Shown here one piece after another: positions 5,679 through 43,000 of a stretch of DNA of 64,000 nt. Location of the stretch: assembly GCF_900044015.1 (NCBI RefSeq), contig NZ_LN999835.1:398365-462364 (forward strand). The letters are read 5' to 3'. Position numbers and translations under genes: made by a program. This stretch comes from Candidatus Hoaglandella endobia. Its GTDB lineage: Bacteria > Pseudomonadota > Gammaproteobacteria > Enterobacterales > Enterobacteriaceae. The notes under the pieces were generated by a model, which saw only the letters and a program-made list of their open reading frames with translations, did not search any database and was not told the DNA's origin. Within the stretch, counting starts at the first letter, position 1, and every line of letters begins with the position of its first letter.

Positions 5679-7560
<1,882 letters not shown>

Positions 7561-7588
7561 GGTAAATTGGGAAGGGACATTAAAGGGC

Positions 7589-8989
7589 ATGGGTAAATCT
7601 TTATATCAAAAACTATATGATGCACACGTGGTCTATGAGGCTAAGAACGAAACTCCGATTCTGTATATTGATCGCCATTTAGTACACGAGGTTACTTCTC
7701 CCCAAGCGTTCGATGGTTTACGCGCTCAGGGACGCACAGTCAGGCAGCCAGAAAAAACTTTTGCCACAATGGATCATAATGTATCTACCCAAACCAAAGA
7801 CATCAATGCTTGCGGCAAAATGGCTCGTATTCAGATGCAAGAACTTATAAAAAACTGCGCTGAATTCGGAGTGCAGCTATATGACCTAAATCATCCTTAC
7901 CAAGGTATTGTGCACGTCATAGGCCCTGAGCAGGGCATGACGCTGCCTGGTATGACCATCGTCTGCGGCGATTCACATACTTCTACCCATGGCGCGTTTG
8001 GCGCGCTGGCGTTCGGTATTGGTACCTCAGAAGTCGAGCATGTTTTGGCGACGCAAACTCTCAAACAGGGTAAGGCCAAGTCAATGAAAGTTGACGTAAC
8101 CAGTAAACCTGCACCTGGTATAACTGCTAAAGATATTGTGCTATCGATCATCGGTAGAATTGGCTCTGCAGGCGGCACTAGCCATGTTATAGAATTTAGC
8201 GGCGAAGCAGTGAGCGCGCTTAGTATGGAGGGCCGTATGACGCTTTGTAATATGGCGATCGAAATGGGTGCTAAAGCAGGCCTAGTAGCGCCGGACGAAA
8301 AGACATACGAATATCTGCAGAATAGACAATTTGCCCCCAAAGGAAAAGATTGGCACCAGGCATTGTTATATTGGAGTACGCTAAAATCAGATGTTGACGC
8401 ACAATTTGACACATTATTTACGCTGGATGCTCGCGATATTGCACCCCAAGTTACTTGGGGGACCAATCCTGGTCAGGTTATTGCTGTTAACCAGGTCATT
8501 CCGTCACCGGAATCGTTCAGTGACCTAGTGGAGCGTAATTCAGCTGCAAAGGCGTTGGCGTATATGGATTTACAGCCAGGTATTCGTCTGACTGATGTAA
8601 CTATCGATAAGGCTTTTATCGGCTCTTGTACGAACTCACGTATCGAAGATTTGCGCGCCGCCGCCGCTGTTGCCCTTGGTAGACATGTTGCCCCTGGAGT
8701 GCAGGCCATTGTGGTACCAGGATCAGGCCCGGTAAAAAAGCAAGCGGAGGCTGAAGGGCTGGACAAAATCTTTCTAGAAGCTGGTTTTGAATGGCGCTTG
8801 CCCGGCTGTTCAATGTGTTTAGCAATGAATAACGACCGTCTTAATCCAGGTGAGCGCTGTGCTTCAACTAGTAACCGTAACTTTGAAGGTCGTCAGGGCC
8901 GTGGCGGGCGTACCCATTTATTGAGCCCGGCAATGGCTGCAGCTGCGGCAGTAGCAGGCCGTTTCGCCGATATTCGTGATTTAAATTAA
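7589..8989 (+). CDS. leuC: 3-isopropylmalate dehydratase large subunit LeuC
   Basis: Aconitase-family subunit that isomerises 2- to 3-isopropylmalate together with LeuD. The 466 residues equal the E. coli length. The 4Fe-4S cysteine ligands are visible in IGSCTNSR (near residue 345) and GCSMC (near 406). It lies 28 bases after leuB in the same operon. The frame is intact. Confidence 0.97.
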
Positions 8990-9019
8990 GGAAATAAATT
9001 GGTAAGGAAATAAATTGGT
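8988..9019 (+). repeat. 16-bp perfect tandem duplication at leuC/leuD junction
   Basis: Two perfect head-to-tail copies of AAGGAAATAAATTGGT occupy 8988-9003 and 9004-9019, starting within the leuC stop codon and ending at the leuD ATG. Each copy carries an AAGGAA Shine-Dalgarno core, so leuD now has a spare upstream ribosome site. A perfect duplication implies a recent event. Confidence 0.97.
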
Positions 9020-9625
9020 ATGGCTAAAAAATTTAATCAACATACTGGCATCGTAGTGCCGTTAGACAACGCGAACGTGGATACTGATGCTATAATTCCC
9101 AAGCAATTCCTACAAAAAATGACCCGCAGTGGTTTTGGTCAGCATTTATTTAACGACTGGCGTTTTCTAGATGCTGCTGGACAGCAGCCTAATCCAGATT
9201 TTGTGCTTAATCAGCCGTGCTATCGCGGTGCTAGTATTTTGTTAACTCGTGAAAACTTCGGGTGTGGCTCTTCGCGAGAGCACGCACCTTGGGCATTAAC
9301 TGATTATGGTTTTCATGCGGTGATAGCCCCGAGTTTTGCTGATATTTTTTATAGTAATAGTTTAAACAATCAATTGCTACCTATTACGCTGCAAGAAGAA
9401 GAAGTAGATGAGCTTTTTGCGCTAGTTAAAGATCACGCAGGCATGACTTTTACTATCAATCTGGAAAAACAGCAGGTGCTAGCCGGCAATAAAGTCTATT
9501 CGTTTGAGATAGATAGTTTTAGTCGCCACTGCATGATCAATGGCCTAGACAGCATCGGTTTAACTATGATGCATGAAGACGCGATCAGTCAGTATGAAAA
9601 ATGCCAGTCAGCGTTTTTAAACTGA
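9020..9625 (+). CDS. leuD: 3-isopropylmalate dehydratase small subunit LeuD
   Basis: Swivel-domain partner of LeuC in the isomerisation of isopropylmalate. The 201 residues match the E. coli length and keep the [12 protein letters not shown] substrate-recognition loop near residue 76. The ATG at 9020 sits directly after a duplicated ribosome-site segment, with AAGGAA ten bases upstream. It is the last gene of leuBCD and converges on traT. Confidence 0.97.
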
Positions 9626-9704: not shown

Positions 9705-9748
9705 AACAAAATAAAAAAAATTAAAGAAGCCCAACTATAGATTGGGCT
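9705..9748 (-). terminator. Rho-independent terminator of traT
   Basis: Plus-strand arms AGCCCAA (9728-9734) and TTGGGCT (9742-9748) form a seven-pair stem with a seven-base loop. On the minus strand it is followed by a T-rich tract. The stem lies within the last codons and stop of traT. Confidence 0.7.
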
Positions 9749-10470
9749 AACTGATCTTCAAGTACAGGCTTAGCTTCATCAAATTTTAGATTAACTTTAT
9801 TAGCAATAGAAACAATGCGAGTCTGATATTTATTATGCTGATTACCTGTCTCTATGCTAGTATGTACTTTATTTCCTAAAGCCCCCTGTCTTAGGGTTGT
9901 CTTGTTTAATGTTTGTACCTTAGTACAATTTATTATGCGTTCAGCAATCTGTACATCAGTAATCATTGTATAATTAATATCTTCAATAAGGGCATCTGCT
10001 ACAGTTCCAGCTAGTCCAGCTACCAGTCCTACACCTAATACTGCACCTATAGAATTATTATTATAGCCGGCTATACCAGCTCCTATAGCCATTCCTGTTA
10101 AGCTACTACTACTTTCAAAACCACTTTGCAAACAGCCTTGAGCATCCCTCAATTCTATTTTATCCGCCTTAAGCACATTCGCTTGAATCCAGTAGTGTGC
10201 CGTACTTGGCATCTTTACTATTTTATACCCCTTCATACGTAAAGCATGAGATATCTTGCTTTGCAAAGCGCTCATATCCTTATCAGAGGTATTTTTAATT
10301 TGCAGATACACGGTCCGATTACTAGATGGCTCAAGAAAAATGGTTTCACTCATCTTAGTTTTTACTTCTAGATTACGTTTCTTGATTGCTGTATTCATAG
10401 CACTACAACCGGATAAAAAAAGCATAATACTGATAACTAGAGCTGCCACAATACTTTTATTTATCATCAT
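9721..10470 (-). CDS. traT: TraT-type outer membrane lipoprotein (surface exclusion / serum resistance)
   Basis: TraT of F-like plasmids is an outer membrane lipoprotein that blocks mating-pair formation and raises resistance to complement. The 249 residues (244 in F TraT) start with a lipoprotein signal ending in the lipobox LSGC, with the lipidated cysteine at residue 22. Conserved family stretches follow: [44 protein letters not shown], a glycine-rich hydrophobic region (about 125-160), [14 protein letters not shown] and [12 protein letters not shown]. Two adjacent ATGs compete for the start; the second (10467) has better spacing to AAGGA. No other transfer gene is nearby. Retention with an open frame and a terminator suggests use, perhaps at the host or co-symbiont interface; that role is inference. 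Confidence 0.92.
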
Positions 10471-10814
10471 TGTTTCCTTTATTTTTTTAATTCTTATTTA
10501 AAATAATTTCTTTTTTTAAATAAGAATTTTCTGTACTATGTTTTAATTAATTAAAATTTATATTTATATTGAAAATATGATCATAAATTTATAAAATGTT
10601 ACATATAGCATTATAAATAATGCTATTAATAATAAAGATAAAATATTTATAAGTGTTATATTGCGCTTAAATTTTTACCCGTATTTTTATTTTTTTTTAT
10701 TTCAACTAGTATATTTTTTATCTTAACCCATTAAAATAAATCAAATATTTTTATATATTAAGATATAACTTGATGTTATTAGATATGCTAATCTAAAATC
10801 TAATTAGATTAGAT

Positions 10815-10838
10815 AGATATGCTTAGATATGCTTAGAT
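10815..10838 (+). repeat. 10-bp tandem duplication in spacer
   Basis: AGATATGCTT occurs twice head to tail (10815-10824, 10825-10834) and a third partial copy, AGAT, follows. Confidence 0.9.
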
Positions 10839-10874
10839 TATAAACACACAATGTGATAAATTGATTAAGATGAG

Positions 10875-10985
10875 AAGTGCAGCAGTTACCCTGTAACTAT
10901 CAGACAATTATATCTAATGACAAAGTCATATTATGACTATTTTTGTTTTAGCACATGATTACGTTTTAGTAACTGCACTTTTTTT
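10875..10985 (+). ncRNA. Candidate small structured RNA, unidentified
   Basis: AAGTGCA (10875-10881) and GTTAC (10885-10889) pair with GTAAC (10969-10973) and TGCACTT (10974-10980), leaving a three-base bulge, and the 3' arm runs into a T run ending at 10985. Inside lies a second hairpin, AGTCAT/ATGACT at about 10924-10938, followed by TATTTTTG. This is the shape of a terminator-ended transcript of about 110 bases. I could not match it to any sRNA I know, and no promoter is clear. It might be only a decayed locus. Confidence 0.3.
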
Positions 10986-11039
10986 ATGATCTATCCAGAT
11001 TAAATAAAATTAGGATATACCTTAGTAGGGATTTCTTTT

Positions 11040-11060
11040 AAGAAAGAAATAAGAAAGAAA
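11040..11060 (+). repeat. 11-bp tandem duplication downstream of DUF2076 gene
   Basis: AAGAAAGAAAT at 11040-11050 is followed by AAGAAAGAAA at 11051-11060, just past the stop of the minus-strand gene at 11066. Confidence 0.8.
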
Positions 11061-11065
11061 ATGGA

Positions 11066-11785
11066 TTAAATAAATCCATCATCGTCATTGCTGAAGTCAT
11101 CAGTATCTAAATCGTCATTGCTGAAGTCAGCAGTATCTAATTTGTTATTAGACAGAGCATCATTTTGATCAAAAAAATGACTTTCAGAAACTTTGTTAAA
11201 GATATCTAGATTACAAGCATCAAAATCTTGAGTTAATAACAAACCACTATCTTCTACAAACGACGTAGTAGGATCATCAATCATATTAATGATCTCGCGA
11301 TAGGATGAGTGGTGAAACATATGAGTAAGCATATTTCCCAAAACCACACCGCTAGCTACGCCGGCAGCAGTCTGCAAAGCACCGGACATAAAACTGCCAC
11401 CACGTGGTATATTATTGGAGCACTGTGGCTGTATTATATTGTAGCCAGCCGATGCAAGCGTTGGTTGTGGCGATGGTGGCGATGAATGAAAACGACAACG
11501 ACCAAACAACCAGCTGAGAAAACCTCTGCCTCTGCTGGCCTGTTGTTGGGCTGCCTGCAACTGGGCAACTTTGTTTTGCAACTGCTGCACCTGCTGATTA
11601 AGCCGATTCAGTGCTGCCTCCTGAATCAATATCGACTGCGCCATATAATAAGGCGCCGCAGGCTGTTGCTGAATAAATTTCTGAATATGCTGATCTGCCT
11701 CAGAATCCCGCGACCTTGAGCTTTGCTCAACCTGTTTCAGACGGTTAAATAGTCCTTCTATTAGACGTTGCTCTTCAGCTTGCAT
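11066..11785 (-). CDS. DUF2076 domain protein, envelope-associated, function unknown
   Basis: The N-terminal half (MQAEEQRLIEGLFNRLKQVE, then QPAAPYYMAQSILIQEAAL and a glutamine-rich coiled coil to about residue 85) matches the DUF2076 family of enterobacterial proteins of unknown function. An SRGRGFLSWLFG segment and a glycine/alanine-rich stretch (about 125-155) follow, with no clear signal peptide. The last 60 residues are acidic, and the final 20 are a tandem repeat of a ten-residue unit around DTADFSNDDL, encoded by a 30-bp duplication. Together with traT it forms a small accessory island between leuD and fmt. No function is proposed. Confidence 0.8.
   Translation of the reverse strand: MQAEEQRLIEGLFNRLKQVEQSSRSRDSEADQHIQKFIQQQPAAPYYMAQSILIQEAALNRLNQQVQQLQNKVAQLQAAQQQASRGRGFLSWLFGRCRFHSSPPSPQPTLASAGYNIIQPQCSNNIPRGGSFMSGALQTAAGVASGVVLGNMLTHMFHHSSYREIINMIDDPTTSFVEDSGLLLTQDFDACNLDIFNKVSESHFFDQNDALSNNKLDTADFSNDDLDTDDFSNDDDGFI
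11081..11140 (-). repeat. 30-bp in-frame tandem duplication in DUF2076 gene
   Basis: The segments 11081-11110 and 11111-11140 are direct repeats differing at one base (11100 T, 11130 G). Because 30 is a multiple of three, the frame is kept and the protein gains a second acidic D-FSNDD unit at its C-terminus. Confidence 0.95.
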
Positions 11786-22838: not shown

Positions 22839-23402
22839 CTAGCTGGTGCCGCCGATAGCTGTCGTTTTTTTCAATTTGGCGTTCAGCGCGTTATCCGCTT
22901 CTCTAGCGGCATATACCGACAGTAGTAGTTTACGCACCAATTGCTGTGCAAGCTGCTGAGGAAGTTCCTGGCGAATAATCTTCCTTTCAGCATCTTTCGC
23001 TAACGCTTTTAGCGGGTGATTGAAGAACGAACGGTATACCGTAACTTCGATGGGGTAGTAATCTTTACCTGGTATTAATACCTGAGCATGCACGCTTAAC
23101 ATCATTTGGTATTCCGCAGTCTTACCGTCTCTGAATACCGAGGCAGTCTTCTGGTTCTCTAACGAGCTTTCTATCCGCAGAGAGGGCAGCGTGGCGCTTT
23201 TTACCTTAGCGTCATCGACGATGGTAATATCGTGTAGGCGCAGCTCGGCGCGCACGGCGCGTGAAATTTGCCCGTAAGGATCTTTACTATGAAAGATTAT
23301 GGTGTTAATTTCGTTCGGTACCTGAGCAGTGCTCAGATGATACCCGCAGCCAGCGCTGACTATTGCAGCAAGGCTTACTACTGCTAAAATCCGATATCGC
23401 AC
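22839..23402 (-). CDS. lptE: LPS-assembly lipoprotein LptE
   Basis: Outer membrane lipoprotein that plugs the LptD barrel. The 187 residues (193 in E. coli) have a signal peptide with lipobox VSAGC, lipidated cysteine at residue 19, followed by [20 protein letters not shown]. It lies 14 bases after leuS, and its partner LptD is at 31005. Both being intact suggests LPS reaches the cell surface. Confidence 0.94.
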
Positions 23403-26117: not shown

Positions 26118-27707
26118 TTATGTATTACGTCGAGATGATGAGGCCCGGCATACATCTAGTAACATGCTTAGCTTATCTAAGATCCTTAGACAAGGACGGC
26201 AGCGTCCAAAAATCAACGCAGTAAATCCGGCTAATAGCGTAATGATCCATATAGGCCAGGAGCCAGCCCGGGCATAGGGCGTCAATGCCCGGGTCGGGAC
26301 CATGTGCACATTAAGCACTTCCCGGGTAAATTGCAGTAATTGTGCTTTTGTTGTGCCATCAGCGTTAATTACTGCCGTAATACCGTTGTTTGTACTGCGC
26401 AAAAGTGGTCGTCCCAGCTCCAGCGAACGCATACGTGCCATCTGAAAATGCTGCCAAGGGCCAATGGAATGCCCAAACCAAGCATCATTGGAAATGGTCA
26501 GTAGAAAGTCAGTATCTGGACGGAAATTATCCCGCACCTGGCCGCCCAAGATAATCTCATAGCAGGCCGTAGCGGTAAGCTTCATTCCGGCTACTTGTAA
26601 TTGCGGCTGCATATATTGCCCCTGGCTCAAAAAAGACATTGGTAGATTAAACAGTGGCGCTAGCGGCCGCAATATCCGCTGCAACGGAACCTTTTCGCCA
26701 AAAGGCACTAGGTGGTGCTTATTATATCGGTCCTCTGCAGGATAACTATAAGGTTTAGATTCGCCTAGAACTACGATACTATTATAATAATCATAGCCGT
26801 GCGGAGTTGGGCGAGCGTCTATAATGCCAGTTATCAAACTAGTGTGCGCTGGGCGCAGTTGCTTATCAAGCTGTATCAAGAAGGCGTTTTGAGCTATCTC
26901 GTCATCCGGAATTGCCGATTCGGGCCAGATAACCATCTGCGCCTTTCCGAGGGACGGCAGAGTATGTTGCAAATAAATATCTAGTGTTGGGTGGACCTGG
27001 CTGGATTGCCATTTCATCGCCGGGGCGATATTGCCCTGAACTAGGGCCACATCGATGCCCCGCTGCGGCTCTAATTGATACCATTGCAGCGAACGTAGCG
27101 GCCAGGATAACAGCAGCAACGCCAGTGTGCTCAATGCCGGCGCCAGCCGCCGCTGGGCTAGAGCCAATACCGCTAGGCCGCTTATCATTACCAATAAGAA
27201 CGTAATCCCCTGCACGCCAACGATGGGCGCAATACCCTTCAACGGCGCGTCTATTTGACTATAGCCAAATTCTAACCAGGGAAAACCTGTTAGCAACCTG
27301 CTGCGCAGGAATTCAGTGACTGTCCAAAGTACCGGAGCACCGAGCGCTAGTCGCCACAGCCCAGTGCTAGGCCATAAACGTGCTAGCAAGACGGCAAATA
27401 ACATGGGATAGAGCGCTAGATAAGCGGCTAACAATCCCACCAGCGCTACGTTGACCAGACTGGGCAAACCGCTAAATTGCGCGATACTTATGTATACCCA
27501 TTTGACGCCGTTACCGAACAAACTAAACCCCCATGCGAACCCTAGTACGGCAGCCTGACGGCTACTACGGCTAAGCGTAGCCGCTAGCAACCCGCCCAAA
27601 GAGACGATTGCTGCAGGCCATAGGTCATAAGGAGAAAAAGCTAACATACCGCAGGCGCCGGTAATAAGCGCTAGCAGTAATCGCAGGCGCTGGCATGCGT
27701 AATCCAT
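26118..27707 (-). CDS. lnt: Apolipoprotein N-acyltransferase Lnt
   Basis: Inner-membrane enzyme adding the third acyl chain to lipoproteins. The 529 residues (512 in E. coli) have about six N-terminal membrane helices and a nitrilase domain with the Glu-Lys-Cys triad in [18 protein letters not shown] and [10 protein letters not shown], and a C-terminal helix near 485-500. Together with LspA it would complete maturation of LptE and TraT. corC, normally just upstream, is reduced to traces. Confidence 0.96.
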
Positions 27708-30520: not shown

Positions 30521-31004
30521 GTATTGGTTAGTGCTGCTGTATTCAACGACCCTAAAAATCAGAATTATATATCTAGTTCATTAATAAAATAACTTATTAG
30601 TAGAAGAGCTGCTTGAGTGTGCTTAATTGGCAGGAAGAGGACGCCAGCTGCATAAGCTAGTCTACGCACGAACAGCTATCTGCTATTTTTATACTGTAGT
30701 TGTTAGCTTAGCTAAGCTACCCAGTTTAGATGAAATATGCACCTTTTGCTCTGTAGCAAACGCCCGCCGCCTGGATTTTGATCTCGAGAAAACAGCATAC
30801 CATGGCTTGAAGTCAATCAAACTAGCACAACCGATCTAACCATCCTAAACTTTATTTAACCGTCTTTTTTATCTACCAGGCATATAGCCGATCAAGAGAG
30901 TTGATAATCACAACCAAGGCTAAAAAAATGTAGAGTAACAAATAGCGATACAGCAAAATTTTGAATAGTCTCTTAAATATTATGAAACTAAAATAAAGAT
31001 GCTT
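30492..31004. other. Spacer between ssb and lptD
   Basis: About 510 bases with no intact gene. It holds the second copy of the ssb-end duplication and a probable djlA remnant on the minus strand (30694-30796). Confidence 0.6.
30694..30796 (-). pseudogene. djlA: Probable djlA remnant
   Basis: The minus strand reads FSRSKSRRRAFATEQK then VHISSKLGSLAKLTTTV, resembling the DjlA region after its membrane anchor (FDKARSRKMAWFANQRERQ, then FEVMGHLTKSKGRV). djlA lies divergently upstream of lptD in E. coli, as this fragment does. No J-domain is left. Confidence 0.5.
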
Positions 31005-33329
31005 ATGAAAAGACAGCTTTCCATATTGATAGCCAGCTTGATATGGTCAGCGCTGTGTAGCCAAAAAGCCTTGTCACAAGAATTTTCAGCTTTTAAAGCT
31101 CAGTGTTTTCTAGGCGTACCTGCCTACAACAAACCGTTGGTCAACGAGGACCATAAAACCCTACCGATTTATATTCAGGCCGATAAGGCCAAAGTTCATG
31201 CTACCGATAAGGCAACTTTTTTAGGTAACGTGAATATTGAACAGGGCAACATTACTTTGAGCGCCGATCAGGTTCAGTTGCAGCAGTCCAACGACAAACA
31301 GCTGCGTACCGTAACCGCCATGGGGAACGTCGAATATGCCAGTAATGAGATAAAACTGAAAGGTGCAAAAGCCTTGTCAAATCTCAATACTAAAAACATT
31401 GATGTCTACAAAGGAAATTACCAGATGGTGGGGCGGCAAGGCCGCGGCGAAGCCGACACAATCAAGCAGCGCAGCGATAACCGCTATCTAGTGTTAGAAA
31501 ATGGTAGCTTCACCTCCTGTTTACCAGGTGATAACAGCTGGAGTGTAGCTGGATCAAAGGTGATCCATGATCGCAAGGAACAAGTAGCTGAGATTTGGAA
31601 CGCACGCTTAAAAATTGGTAACTTATCAGTTCTATATAGCCCGTACCTGCAACTTCCGGTGGGCAATAAACGCCGTTCTGGTTTCTTGATTCCCAACGCT
31701 AAATATGGCAGTAGCAACGGCTTTGAGTTCAGCACTCCCTATTACCTAAACCTAGCAAAAAATTATGATGCTACCATCACACCAAAATACATGAGCAAAT
31801 GGGGCATGCAGCTACAAAACGAGTTCCGTTACTTGACTATTCTGGGTGATGGTCTAGTGGAGTTAGACTGGCTGCCTCATAACCAGATCTACAGCGGTGA
31901 ACATAGCAGCGCTAGAGCTAGCGATCGCTGGCTACTATATTGGCGCCATAATGGCGTGATAGAAAAAGTATGGCGCGTTAACGTCGATTATACTAAAGTC
32001 AGCGACTACGATTATTTTCATAATCTGGATTCTAAACACGGTAGTACTAACGACAGCTATACCACACAAAAATTTAGCATCGGCTACGCCAACAAAAATT
32101 GGGATACCGCTCTATTTTACAAGCAGTTCCAGGTGTTTGATAACAGCAGCGCCGCTTATCTCGCAGTGCCCCAGCTTGATTTAAACTTTTATACAAACGA
32201 CGTTCATCTATTAGACTTCAAGTTTTTCAGCCAGGCTGTGAAGTTTATCAACATCAACAAAAGCTATCCCAAGGCAACGAGGCTACATATCGAGCCTACT
32301 CTAGGCCTGCCGATGGCTAACAGCTGGGGCAGTTTGAATACCGAAGCTAAACTGATGGCAACTTACTATAAGCAAGAAAATTTTAATAACTACAATATGT
32401 TGACTGGCCGACATCTGAAAGGAACGGTTAATCGGATCCTGCTGCAGCTCAAAACTGACGGCAAGATAGTTTTTAAACGCGATATAGATTACCTGGTGGA
32501 CTACACCCAGACCCTGGAACCGCGGCTGCAGTATCTTTATGTCCCTTATCGCAATCAGAATAATATCGGCGTCTATGACTCAACTATGCTACAAACTGAT
32601 GATTATGCTGGCATGTTTCGCGATCGCAGCTACAGCGGACTGGATCGTATCTCTTCCGCCAATCAGCTAGCTGGCGGCATTATGACACGTATTTATGATA
32701 ATCAACGAGTGGAAAGAGTTAACATATCCGCTGGTCAAATATACTACTTTTCACGGCCACGAACTGGTGACCTCAAAGGAACATGGGACCGGTATGAGAA
32801 TACCGGCAGCCTGGTATGGGCAGGAAATAGCTACTGGCTTATTAATAATAATTGGGGTTTTCGCGGCGGTTTTCAATATGATTTCCGTCTCAATAGCATC
32901 GCACTGGGCGATATGGTATTGGAATATCGGCGCGATGAGGACTGCATTTTGCAGCTGAATTATCGCTACGCTAGCCCGCAGTATACTAAGCATCTGCTGT
33001 CTAATATGCTGAATCCAGGTTGGCAACATAGCATTTCGCAAGTAGGCGTTACCGGCAGTTGGCTGCTGGTTAATCGGTGGTCATTGGTTGGCACGTATTA
33101 TTACGATGTCAAAATGAACCAGCCAGCAAACCAGCTTATCTGCTTGCAATACAATACTTGCTGCTGGGCTGTCAGCGTCGGATATGAGCGGAAGATTACT
33201 GGCTGGAACAGCGCCGACAGTTCCAGTAAGTACGATAAGCAAATATCTTGTATCATTGAATTGCGTGGTTTGAGCAGCAATCCTGGCTTACATTTCTTGA
33301 CCAAAGACAGCCTAGCTGATATATGGTAA
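31005..33329 (+). CDS. lptD: LPS-assembly outer membrane protein LptD
   Basis: Outer membrane barrel that inserts LPS in the outer leaflet together with LptE. From ATG 31005 (MKRQLSILIASLIWSALCSQ) it has 774 residues (784 in E. coli): a signal peptide of about 24, an N-terminal OstA jellyroll (about 50-200) and the barrel. The cysteines needed for the rearranged disulfides are kept: QCFLG, TSCLPG and the adjacent pair in NTCCWAV. It overlaps the surA region and appears full length. Confidence 0.96.
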   Translation: MKRQLSILIASLIWSALCSQKALSQEFSAFKAQCFLGVPAYNKPLVNEDHKTLPIYIQADKAKVHATDKATFLGNVNIEQGNITLSADQVQLQQSNDKQLRTVTAMGNVEYASNEIKLKGAKALSNLNTKNIDVYKGNYQMVGRQGRGEADTIKQRSDNRYLVLENGSFTSCLPGDNSWSVAGSKVIHDRKEQVAEIWNARLKIGNLSVLYSPYLQLPVGNKRRSGFLIPNAKYGSSNGFEFSTPYYLNLAKNYDATITPKYMSKWGMQLQNEFRYLTILGDGLVELDWLPHNQIYSGEHSSARASDRWLLYWRHNGVIEKVWRVNVDYTKVSDYDYFHNLDSKHGSTNDSYTTQKFSIGYANKNWDTALFYKQFQVFDNSSAAYLAVPQLDLNFYTNDVHLLDFKFFSQAVKFININKSYPKATRLHIEPTLGLPMANSWGSLNTEAKLMATYYKQENFNNYNMLTGRHLKGTVNRILLQLKTDGKIVFKRDIDYLVDYTQTLEPRLQYLYVPYRNQNNIGVYDSTMLQTDDYAGMFRDRSYSGLDRISSANQLAGGIMTRIYDNQRVERVNISAGQIYYFSRPRTGDLKGTWDRYENTGSLVWAGNSYWLINNNWGFRGGFQYDFRLNSIALGDMVLEYRRDEDCILQLNYRYASPQYTKHLLSNMLNPGWQHSISQVGVTGSWLLVNRWSLVGTYYYDVKMNQPANQLICLQYNTCCWAVSVGYERKITGWNSADSSSKYDKQISCIIELRGLSSNPGLHFLTKDSLADIW

Positions 33330-42469: not shown

Positions 42470-43000
42470 TCAGAATGATTTGTCCTCATTTGACATTGTG
42501 TTCATAGTTATTTTATTAGCGGGACAGAAGAAACCGTCTAATAGCATAAACAATGCGCCGATACAAATAACAAGATCCGCCACATTAAATGTTGGCCAAT
42601 GCCAATCGCTCACATAAAAATCGATAAAGTCGATTACTACGCCGTGAACCATTCGGTCGAACAGGTTACCAAGCGCGCCCCCAATAATCATGGCGTAGGC
42701 AGCATTCAACAACCTATTACGATAATCAGATTGATACATCATGACCAATAGCATCACCGTAATAACCAAAGCAATAACTGAAAATAACCAGCATTGCCAG
42801 CCGCCTTGGTCTGCCAAAAAACTAAAGGCTGCTCCTGGATTATGCACATAGGTAAAATTGATAAAAGGTATAACCACTACTGACTTGCCGAGAGCACAGT
42901 AGGTCATGATCAACTTCTTACTGCTGAGATCCAGCAGTAGTACCACCGAAGTAATCCAAAGCCAGCAAAATCTTGTTGAAGTAAACATGCTATTATTCAT
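42470..43000 (-). CDS. lspA: Prolipoprotein signal peptidase LspA
   Basis: Cleaves lipoprotein signal peptides after lipidation. The 176 residues (164 in E. coli) have four membrane helices and the catalytic aspartates in [10 protein letters not shown] (near 122) and VDFIDFYV with [11 protein letters not shown] (near 140-150). Its ATG shares one base with the ileS stop, as in coupled ileS-lspA. fkpB, ispH and rihC, between it and dapB in E. coli, are gone. Client lipoproteins in this window are TraT and LptE. Confidence 0.95.

Follow-up and report, generated by a model that had tools for sequence, protein, structure and literature searches.

An intact F-like traT gene in the reduced chromosome of the insect symbiont Candidatus Hoaglandella endobia

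The closest described relatives of the protein analysed here are the TraTs of the IncF plasmids pKpQIL and F, for which structures have been solved (PDB 9fsm, 9fs5 and 9e2v). Chromosomal TraTs with no assigned role have also been published, and a survey of the family found plasmid-to-chromosome moves in Enterobacteriaceae (PMC11733297). A chromosomal TraT is therefore not in itself new, and Hoaglandella adds a further example. The chromosomal TraTs of Citrobacter, Enterobacter, Kosakonia and Edwardsiella likewise have no transfer genes nearby, but they belong to large, free-living genomes, unlike that of Hoaglandella. Among insect symbionts, Hamiltonella also carries IncFII plasmid DNA integrated in its chromosome; the traT within that DNA is inactivated (PMC5322557), whereas the Hoaglandella gene is intact and stands alone. 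The tsetse symbiont Wigglesworthia glossinidia, which likewise has a reduced genome, has TraT without transfer genes.

The genome of Ca. Hoaglandella endobia, which we take to be a nested symbiont of the mealybug Trionymus perrisii, comprises a chromosome of 628,221 bp and two small contigs (5,248 and 3,244 bases). The 3,244-base contig, presumably circular, holds the sole copies of proS (prolyl-tRNA synthetase) and a gmhA-type gene; a tblastn search found no second proS in the chromosome. We analysed a 64,000-nucleotide stretch of the chromosome (the window). A complete 249-amino-acid traT frame without internal stop, predicted to encode an outer-membrane lipoprotein precursor, occupies positions 9721-10470 on the minus strand, and a whole-genome search identified this copy as the only TraT. 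A ribosome-binding site, AAGGA (10475-10479, minus strand), precedes two ATGs by 4 or 7 nt. By sequence reading and alignment, the lipobox L19-S-G-C22 (10405-10416, minus strand) lies behind a signal peptide, with Cys22 as the predicted lipidated residue and a Ser at +2, as expected for outer-membrane sorting. A terminator stem-loop, AGCCCAATCTATAGTTGGGCT, followed by a T-run (9728-9748, minus strand), overlaps the last codons at the 3' end of the gene. The Pfam TraT profile PF05818 matched over positions 1-213 of 214 with 245.9 bits (cut-off 31; E = 4.8e-73), and the NCBIfam equivalog NF010291 (conjugal transfer complement resistance protein TraT) scored 369 bits, below its cut-off of 445. 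The frame, lipobox, family architecture and terminator that the sequence-only reading had described as intact are thus all present; the gene is unremarkable for its family, and what is unusual is the genome that carries it.

The mature protein is 69% identical to pKpQIL TraT (9fsm) and 67% identical to F TraT. The Hoaglandella protein has the lipobox, membrane hairpin, beta-hairpin and predicted core fold in common with these plasmid proteins; it differs from them in five added residues at three sites and in its AT-rich codons, and its gene is chromosomal, solitary and without a tra operon. The predicted transmembrane alpha-hairpin in the middle of the protein (residues 121-161; 9988-10110, minus strand) is rich in Gly and Ala, with a mean hydropathy of 0.98 and one charged residue in 42, matching plasmid TraTs. 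A beta-hairpin at residues ~184-210 (9841-9921, minus strand), predicted from AlphaFold2 strands and from homology to 9fsm and 9e2v, corresponds to the inner ring of the solved TraT decamers. The AlphaFold2 model as a whole had a mean pLDDT of only 66.6 and the membrane hairpin was not modelled, a failure likewise reported for plasmid TraT. The best Foldseek matches of the model core were the three solved TraT structures, with E values down to 3.4e-28. Across the bacterial family, TraT scored above the cut-off in 43 of 392 genomes. Only 3 of the 107 genomes of ~1 Mb or less had it (Hoaglandella and two Wigglesworthia-type genomes), a count from which absent plasmid contigs may hide more.

The gene lies outside any F-like tra operon, with neither traD nor traG as a neighbour. 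That no transfer gene lies nearby, as had been remarked from the sequence, holds genome-wide: TraD, TraF, TraG, TraH and TraI had no match at E<=1e-3 in the chromosome or in either small contig. The adjoining leuBCD genes and the rsmH-ftsL-ftsI-murE block retain the gene order of E. coli, and the stretch from leuA to mraZ between them has been deleted; judged by this gene order, traT sits at a rearrangement joint flanked by native genes. The leuBCD genes are retained (5679-6477 and 6478-9625), and leuA, ilvI and ilvH are absent by tblastn of the whole genome; the first steps of the pathway may be supplied by another partner. The 595-base spacer upstream of traT (10471-11065) has 20% GC, compared with ~44% in this stretch of the genome. 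It includes a structured stretch with a T-run at its end (10871-10985, plus strand; folding z -3.1), which had no Rfam match and for which no relative was found; it could act as a terminator or encode a small RNA. The DUF2076 gene, which lies downstream of fmt and was suggested in the sequence-only reading to share an island with traT, has orthologues in Sodalis-like chromosomes at a different place, two of them beside queH-type and EF-G-type genes. It belongs natively to Sodalis-type chromosomes, and the island was rejected on this ground. Its acidic C-terminus contains a 30-base tandem duplication (97% identical; 11081-11140). A phage or defence-system family was also considered and gave no match.

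Several features point to constraint on the coding sequence. With a consensus built from nine plasmid-type TraTs as reference, traT has a pN/pS of 0.28, with synonymous sites near saturation. The protein keeps 89 of the 102 columns that are invariant in 14 relatives, and the exceptions are mostly mild. All three insertions (2, 2 and 1 residues) are in-frame. The gene has accumulated ~230 differences from the plasmid consensus and not one stop codon, whereas in a simple simulation of 230 random changes the frame stayed open in 0.15% of runs. These results, pN/pS included, cover time on plasmids and leave room for recent relaxation; taken as they stand, they suggest that traT is probably functional today. 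If traT were instead a relic, an open frame without present function and heading to decay, its AT-rich third codon positions (GC 0.26), its GC-poor surroundings empty of other genes and the absence of TraT from nearly all other small genomes would be readily accommodated. The in-frame length changes, the open frame after so many differences, and the intact ribosome-binding site and terminator argue against decay, and we consider a relic unlikely.

If TraT is made, the means to mature it appear to be present. LspA (42470-43000), Lnt (26118-27707), LptD (30999-33329) and LptE (22839-23402) were all located in the window, in agreement with the outer-membrane pathway that had been read from the sequence, and homologues of Lgt, LolA, LolB, LolC, LolD, LolE, BamA, Skp, LpxA/B/D and WaaA/C/F were found in the genome. 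Judged by homology, the gene set for lipoprotein maturation and sorting is complete, and by analogy with the solved structures we infer that TraT would form a homodecamer in the outer membrane of Hoaglandella. TraT has been proposed to act as a general barrier to outer-membrane penetration that is not tied to conjugation (PMC12658005), and this proposal suits a genome where exclusion would serve no evident purpose. We regard a rigid outer-membrane barrier as the likeliest, though still tentative, role of the Hoaglandella protein, to which we would give somewhat less than an even chance. The sequence-only reading had considered the retention of traT odd. Exclusion indeed has no obvious use here, but retention is less odd than claimed because PMC11733297 describes chromosomal TraTs of unassigned role and PMC12658005 puts forward a general barrier role.

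Other parts of the envelope are missing. OmpA, TolA, TolR, an intact TolB and an intact Lpp were not found in the Hoaglandella genome. We considered whether TraT compensates for these losses and rejected the idea as not specific: of 41 small genomes, nearly all of them lacking TraT, 33 gave no hit for OmpA and 30 none for the TolB N-domain. The losses in Hoaglandella would be compatible with a need for stiffening, but because they are usual in small genomes that mostly lack TraT, they give no specific support for such a role. Replacement of LptE by TraT, suggested by their common core fold, was also rejected, since Hoaglandella has LptE and Wigglesworthia has an ORF in its place. That ORF, a divergent lipoprotein gene between leuS and holA at ~640,860-641,430, was not detected by the Pfam LptE profile.

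In mealybug systems Hoaglandella is thought to live within another bacterium, and few immune proteins should reach a symbiont nested in this way. This weighs against TraT serving as a shield that guards against complement-like proteins or antimicrobial peptides, or as a mediator of contact with the Tremblaya cell around it. Reports that TraT counteracts complement in other bacteria are discussed in PMC11733297, and Wigglesworthia, another insect symbiont, has retained the protein; yet F TraT is reported to have formed no complex with complement factor H (PMC12658005), and no sequence feature of the Hoaglandella protein indicates a new partner. A shielding or contact role is, in our judgement, distinctly unlikely.

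The origin of the gene can be stated with more confidence than its role. In a tree of 52 TraTs, from which the long-branched Wigglesworthia proteins were left out, the window TraT fell inside an Enterobacterales group (support 96/94) and outside the chromosomal clade of Citrobacter, Enterobacter and Kosakonia (support 100/97 for the clade without Edwardsiella). Its closest rows were F-like plasmid proteins, the nearest plasmid TraTs being 69% identical. A grouping of the window and Wigglesworthia TraTs (support 85) was given no weight, in view of the great length of the Wigglesworthia branches. The tree, which the sequence-only reading had proposed as a check, and the profile match bear out its description of a TraT of the F-like plasmid group on the chromosome of a genome-reduced symbiont. 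The resident 5.2-kb plasmid encodes an IncFII-type RepA (PF02387), ParM and a StbB-type protein, and its genes match plasmids of Sodalis and Ca. Doolittlea. The third-position GC of traT is 0.26, compared with 0.36-0.54 in 24 other window genes, and is close to that of the plasmid genes parR (0.24) and parM (0.31). Tree group, resident plasmid and third-position GC are all in keeping with an IncFII-type plasmid as the source, and we infer a move from such a plasmid into the chromosome. Some points count against this origin: no plasmid DNA was recognisable at the locus beyond traT itself, and the tree places the protein to group level, not to an exact branch. On balance, we consider a plasmid origin followed by chromosomal placement likely.

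The gene does not track the species tree: no intact TraT was found in the Sodalis-like genomes searched. A single stub occurs in a 4,513,140-bp Sodalis-type genome, where the 3' end of traT adjoins a ParA-like gene in a region rich in insertion sequences, with an IncFII-type repA fragment 3.4 kb away; this setting also favours a plasmid origin. We considered this stub as a sister of the window gene and rejected it, since the 85% match spans only 33 residues, of which 28 are identical to the window TraT and 30 to plasmid TraTs; by these counts, the match reflects shared family membership, not a sister gene. Vertical descent of traT from an ancient chromosomal gene of the Sodalis lineage, with no plasmid in its history, would be in keeping with the frequency of chromosomal TraTs in Enterobacterales (our genome survey; PMC11733297). 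The lack of intact TraT in the Sodalis-like genomes, the position of the sole stub in integrated plasmid DNA and the placement of the window TraT outside the chromosomal clade make such descent highly improbable.

On what was observed directly (the gene, its tree group, its conserved sequence, the pathway genes and the IncFII-type plasmid in the same genome), we would build the following account. An IncFII-type plasmid may have carried an F-like traT into a Sodalis-like ancestor, and the gene would then have moved onto the chromosome, where selection would have kept it once all transfer genes had gone. Lipidation and trimming of the prolipoprotein would fall to Lgt, LspA and Lnt, and Lol proteins would deliver the product to the outer membrane, where a rigid decamer is expected. 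Its present role would be passive, stiffening and covering the outer membrane so that it withstands osmotic damage or penetration, instead of blocking plasmid transfer. Taken as a whole, from plasmid-borne arrival and chromosomal move to retention under selection as a passive barrier, this account has in our view slightly less than an even chance of being correct. That surface exclusion remains the selected function, with TraT barring incoming F-like plasmids, would suit the clearly F-like sequence and predicted fold but is scarcely credible in a genome without transfer genes, for a vertically inherited nested symbiont that encounters few donors and for a process that requires high TraT levels (PMC12658005).

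The passive-barrier account has a possible parallel in other symbionts. The Hoaglandella plasmid carries Hsp20 and MscS; nothing else in the genome matched this MscS, and the genome lacks MscL. The 5.3-kb plasmid of Wigglesworthia, with an RPA-type, not an IncFII, replicon, carries TraT beside MscS, Hsp20 and SPFH. A Doolittlea plasmid combines an IncFII-type RepA with MscS, and an Aschnera plasmid combines an RPA-type RepA with SPFH and MscS. MscS is thus common to the mini-plasmids of four insect-symbiont lineages, on two unrelated replicon types, with Hsp20 or SPFH in several. The Wigglesworthia traT copies, on two plasmids (1882-2601 and 1512-2252, both minus strand), encode proteins only 36-39% identical to Hoaglandella TraT. 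Both lack the membrane hairpin, having 30-31 residues with ten charges in its place as against 40-42 residues with one charge, and may therefore have ceased to span the outer membrane. TraT is also the least conserved cargo between the two plasmids, with 44% identity compared with 59-78% for the others. It is conceivable, if rather doubtful at present, that reduced insect symbionts repeatedly keep a plasmid-derived envelope set (TraT, MscS, Hsp20 and sometimes SPFH), carried by unrelated mini-plasmids or relocated to the chromosome, that would guard a weakened envelope against osmotic or mechanical damage. The parallel MscS, Hsp20 and TraT cargo makes such an envelope-protection set testable across more symbionts.

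Two structure papers from 2025 describe the role of TraT outside conjugation as an open question. A genome of ~0.63 Mb without transfer genes that holds a constrained, intact TraT offers a natural experiment on this question: surface exclusion is hardly the reason for TraT here, and the search for another function is therefore narrowed.
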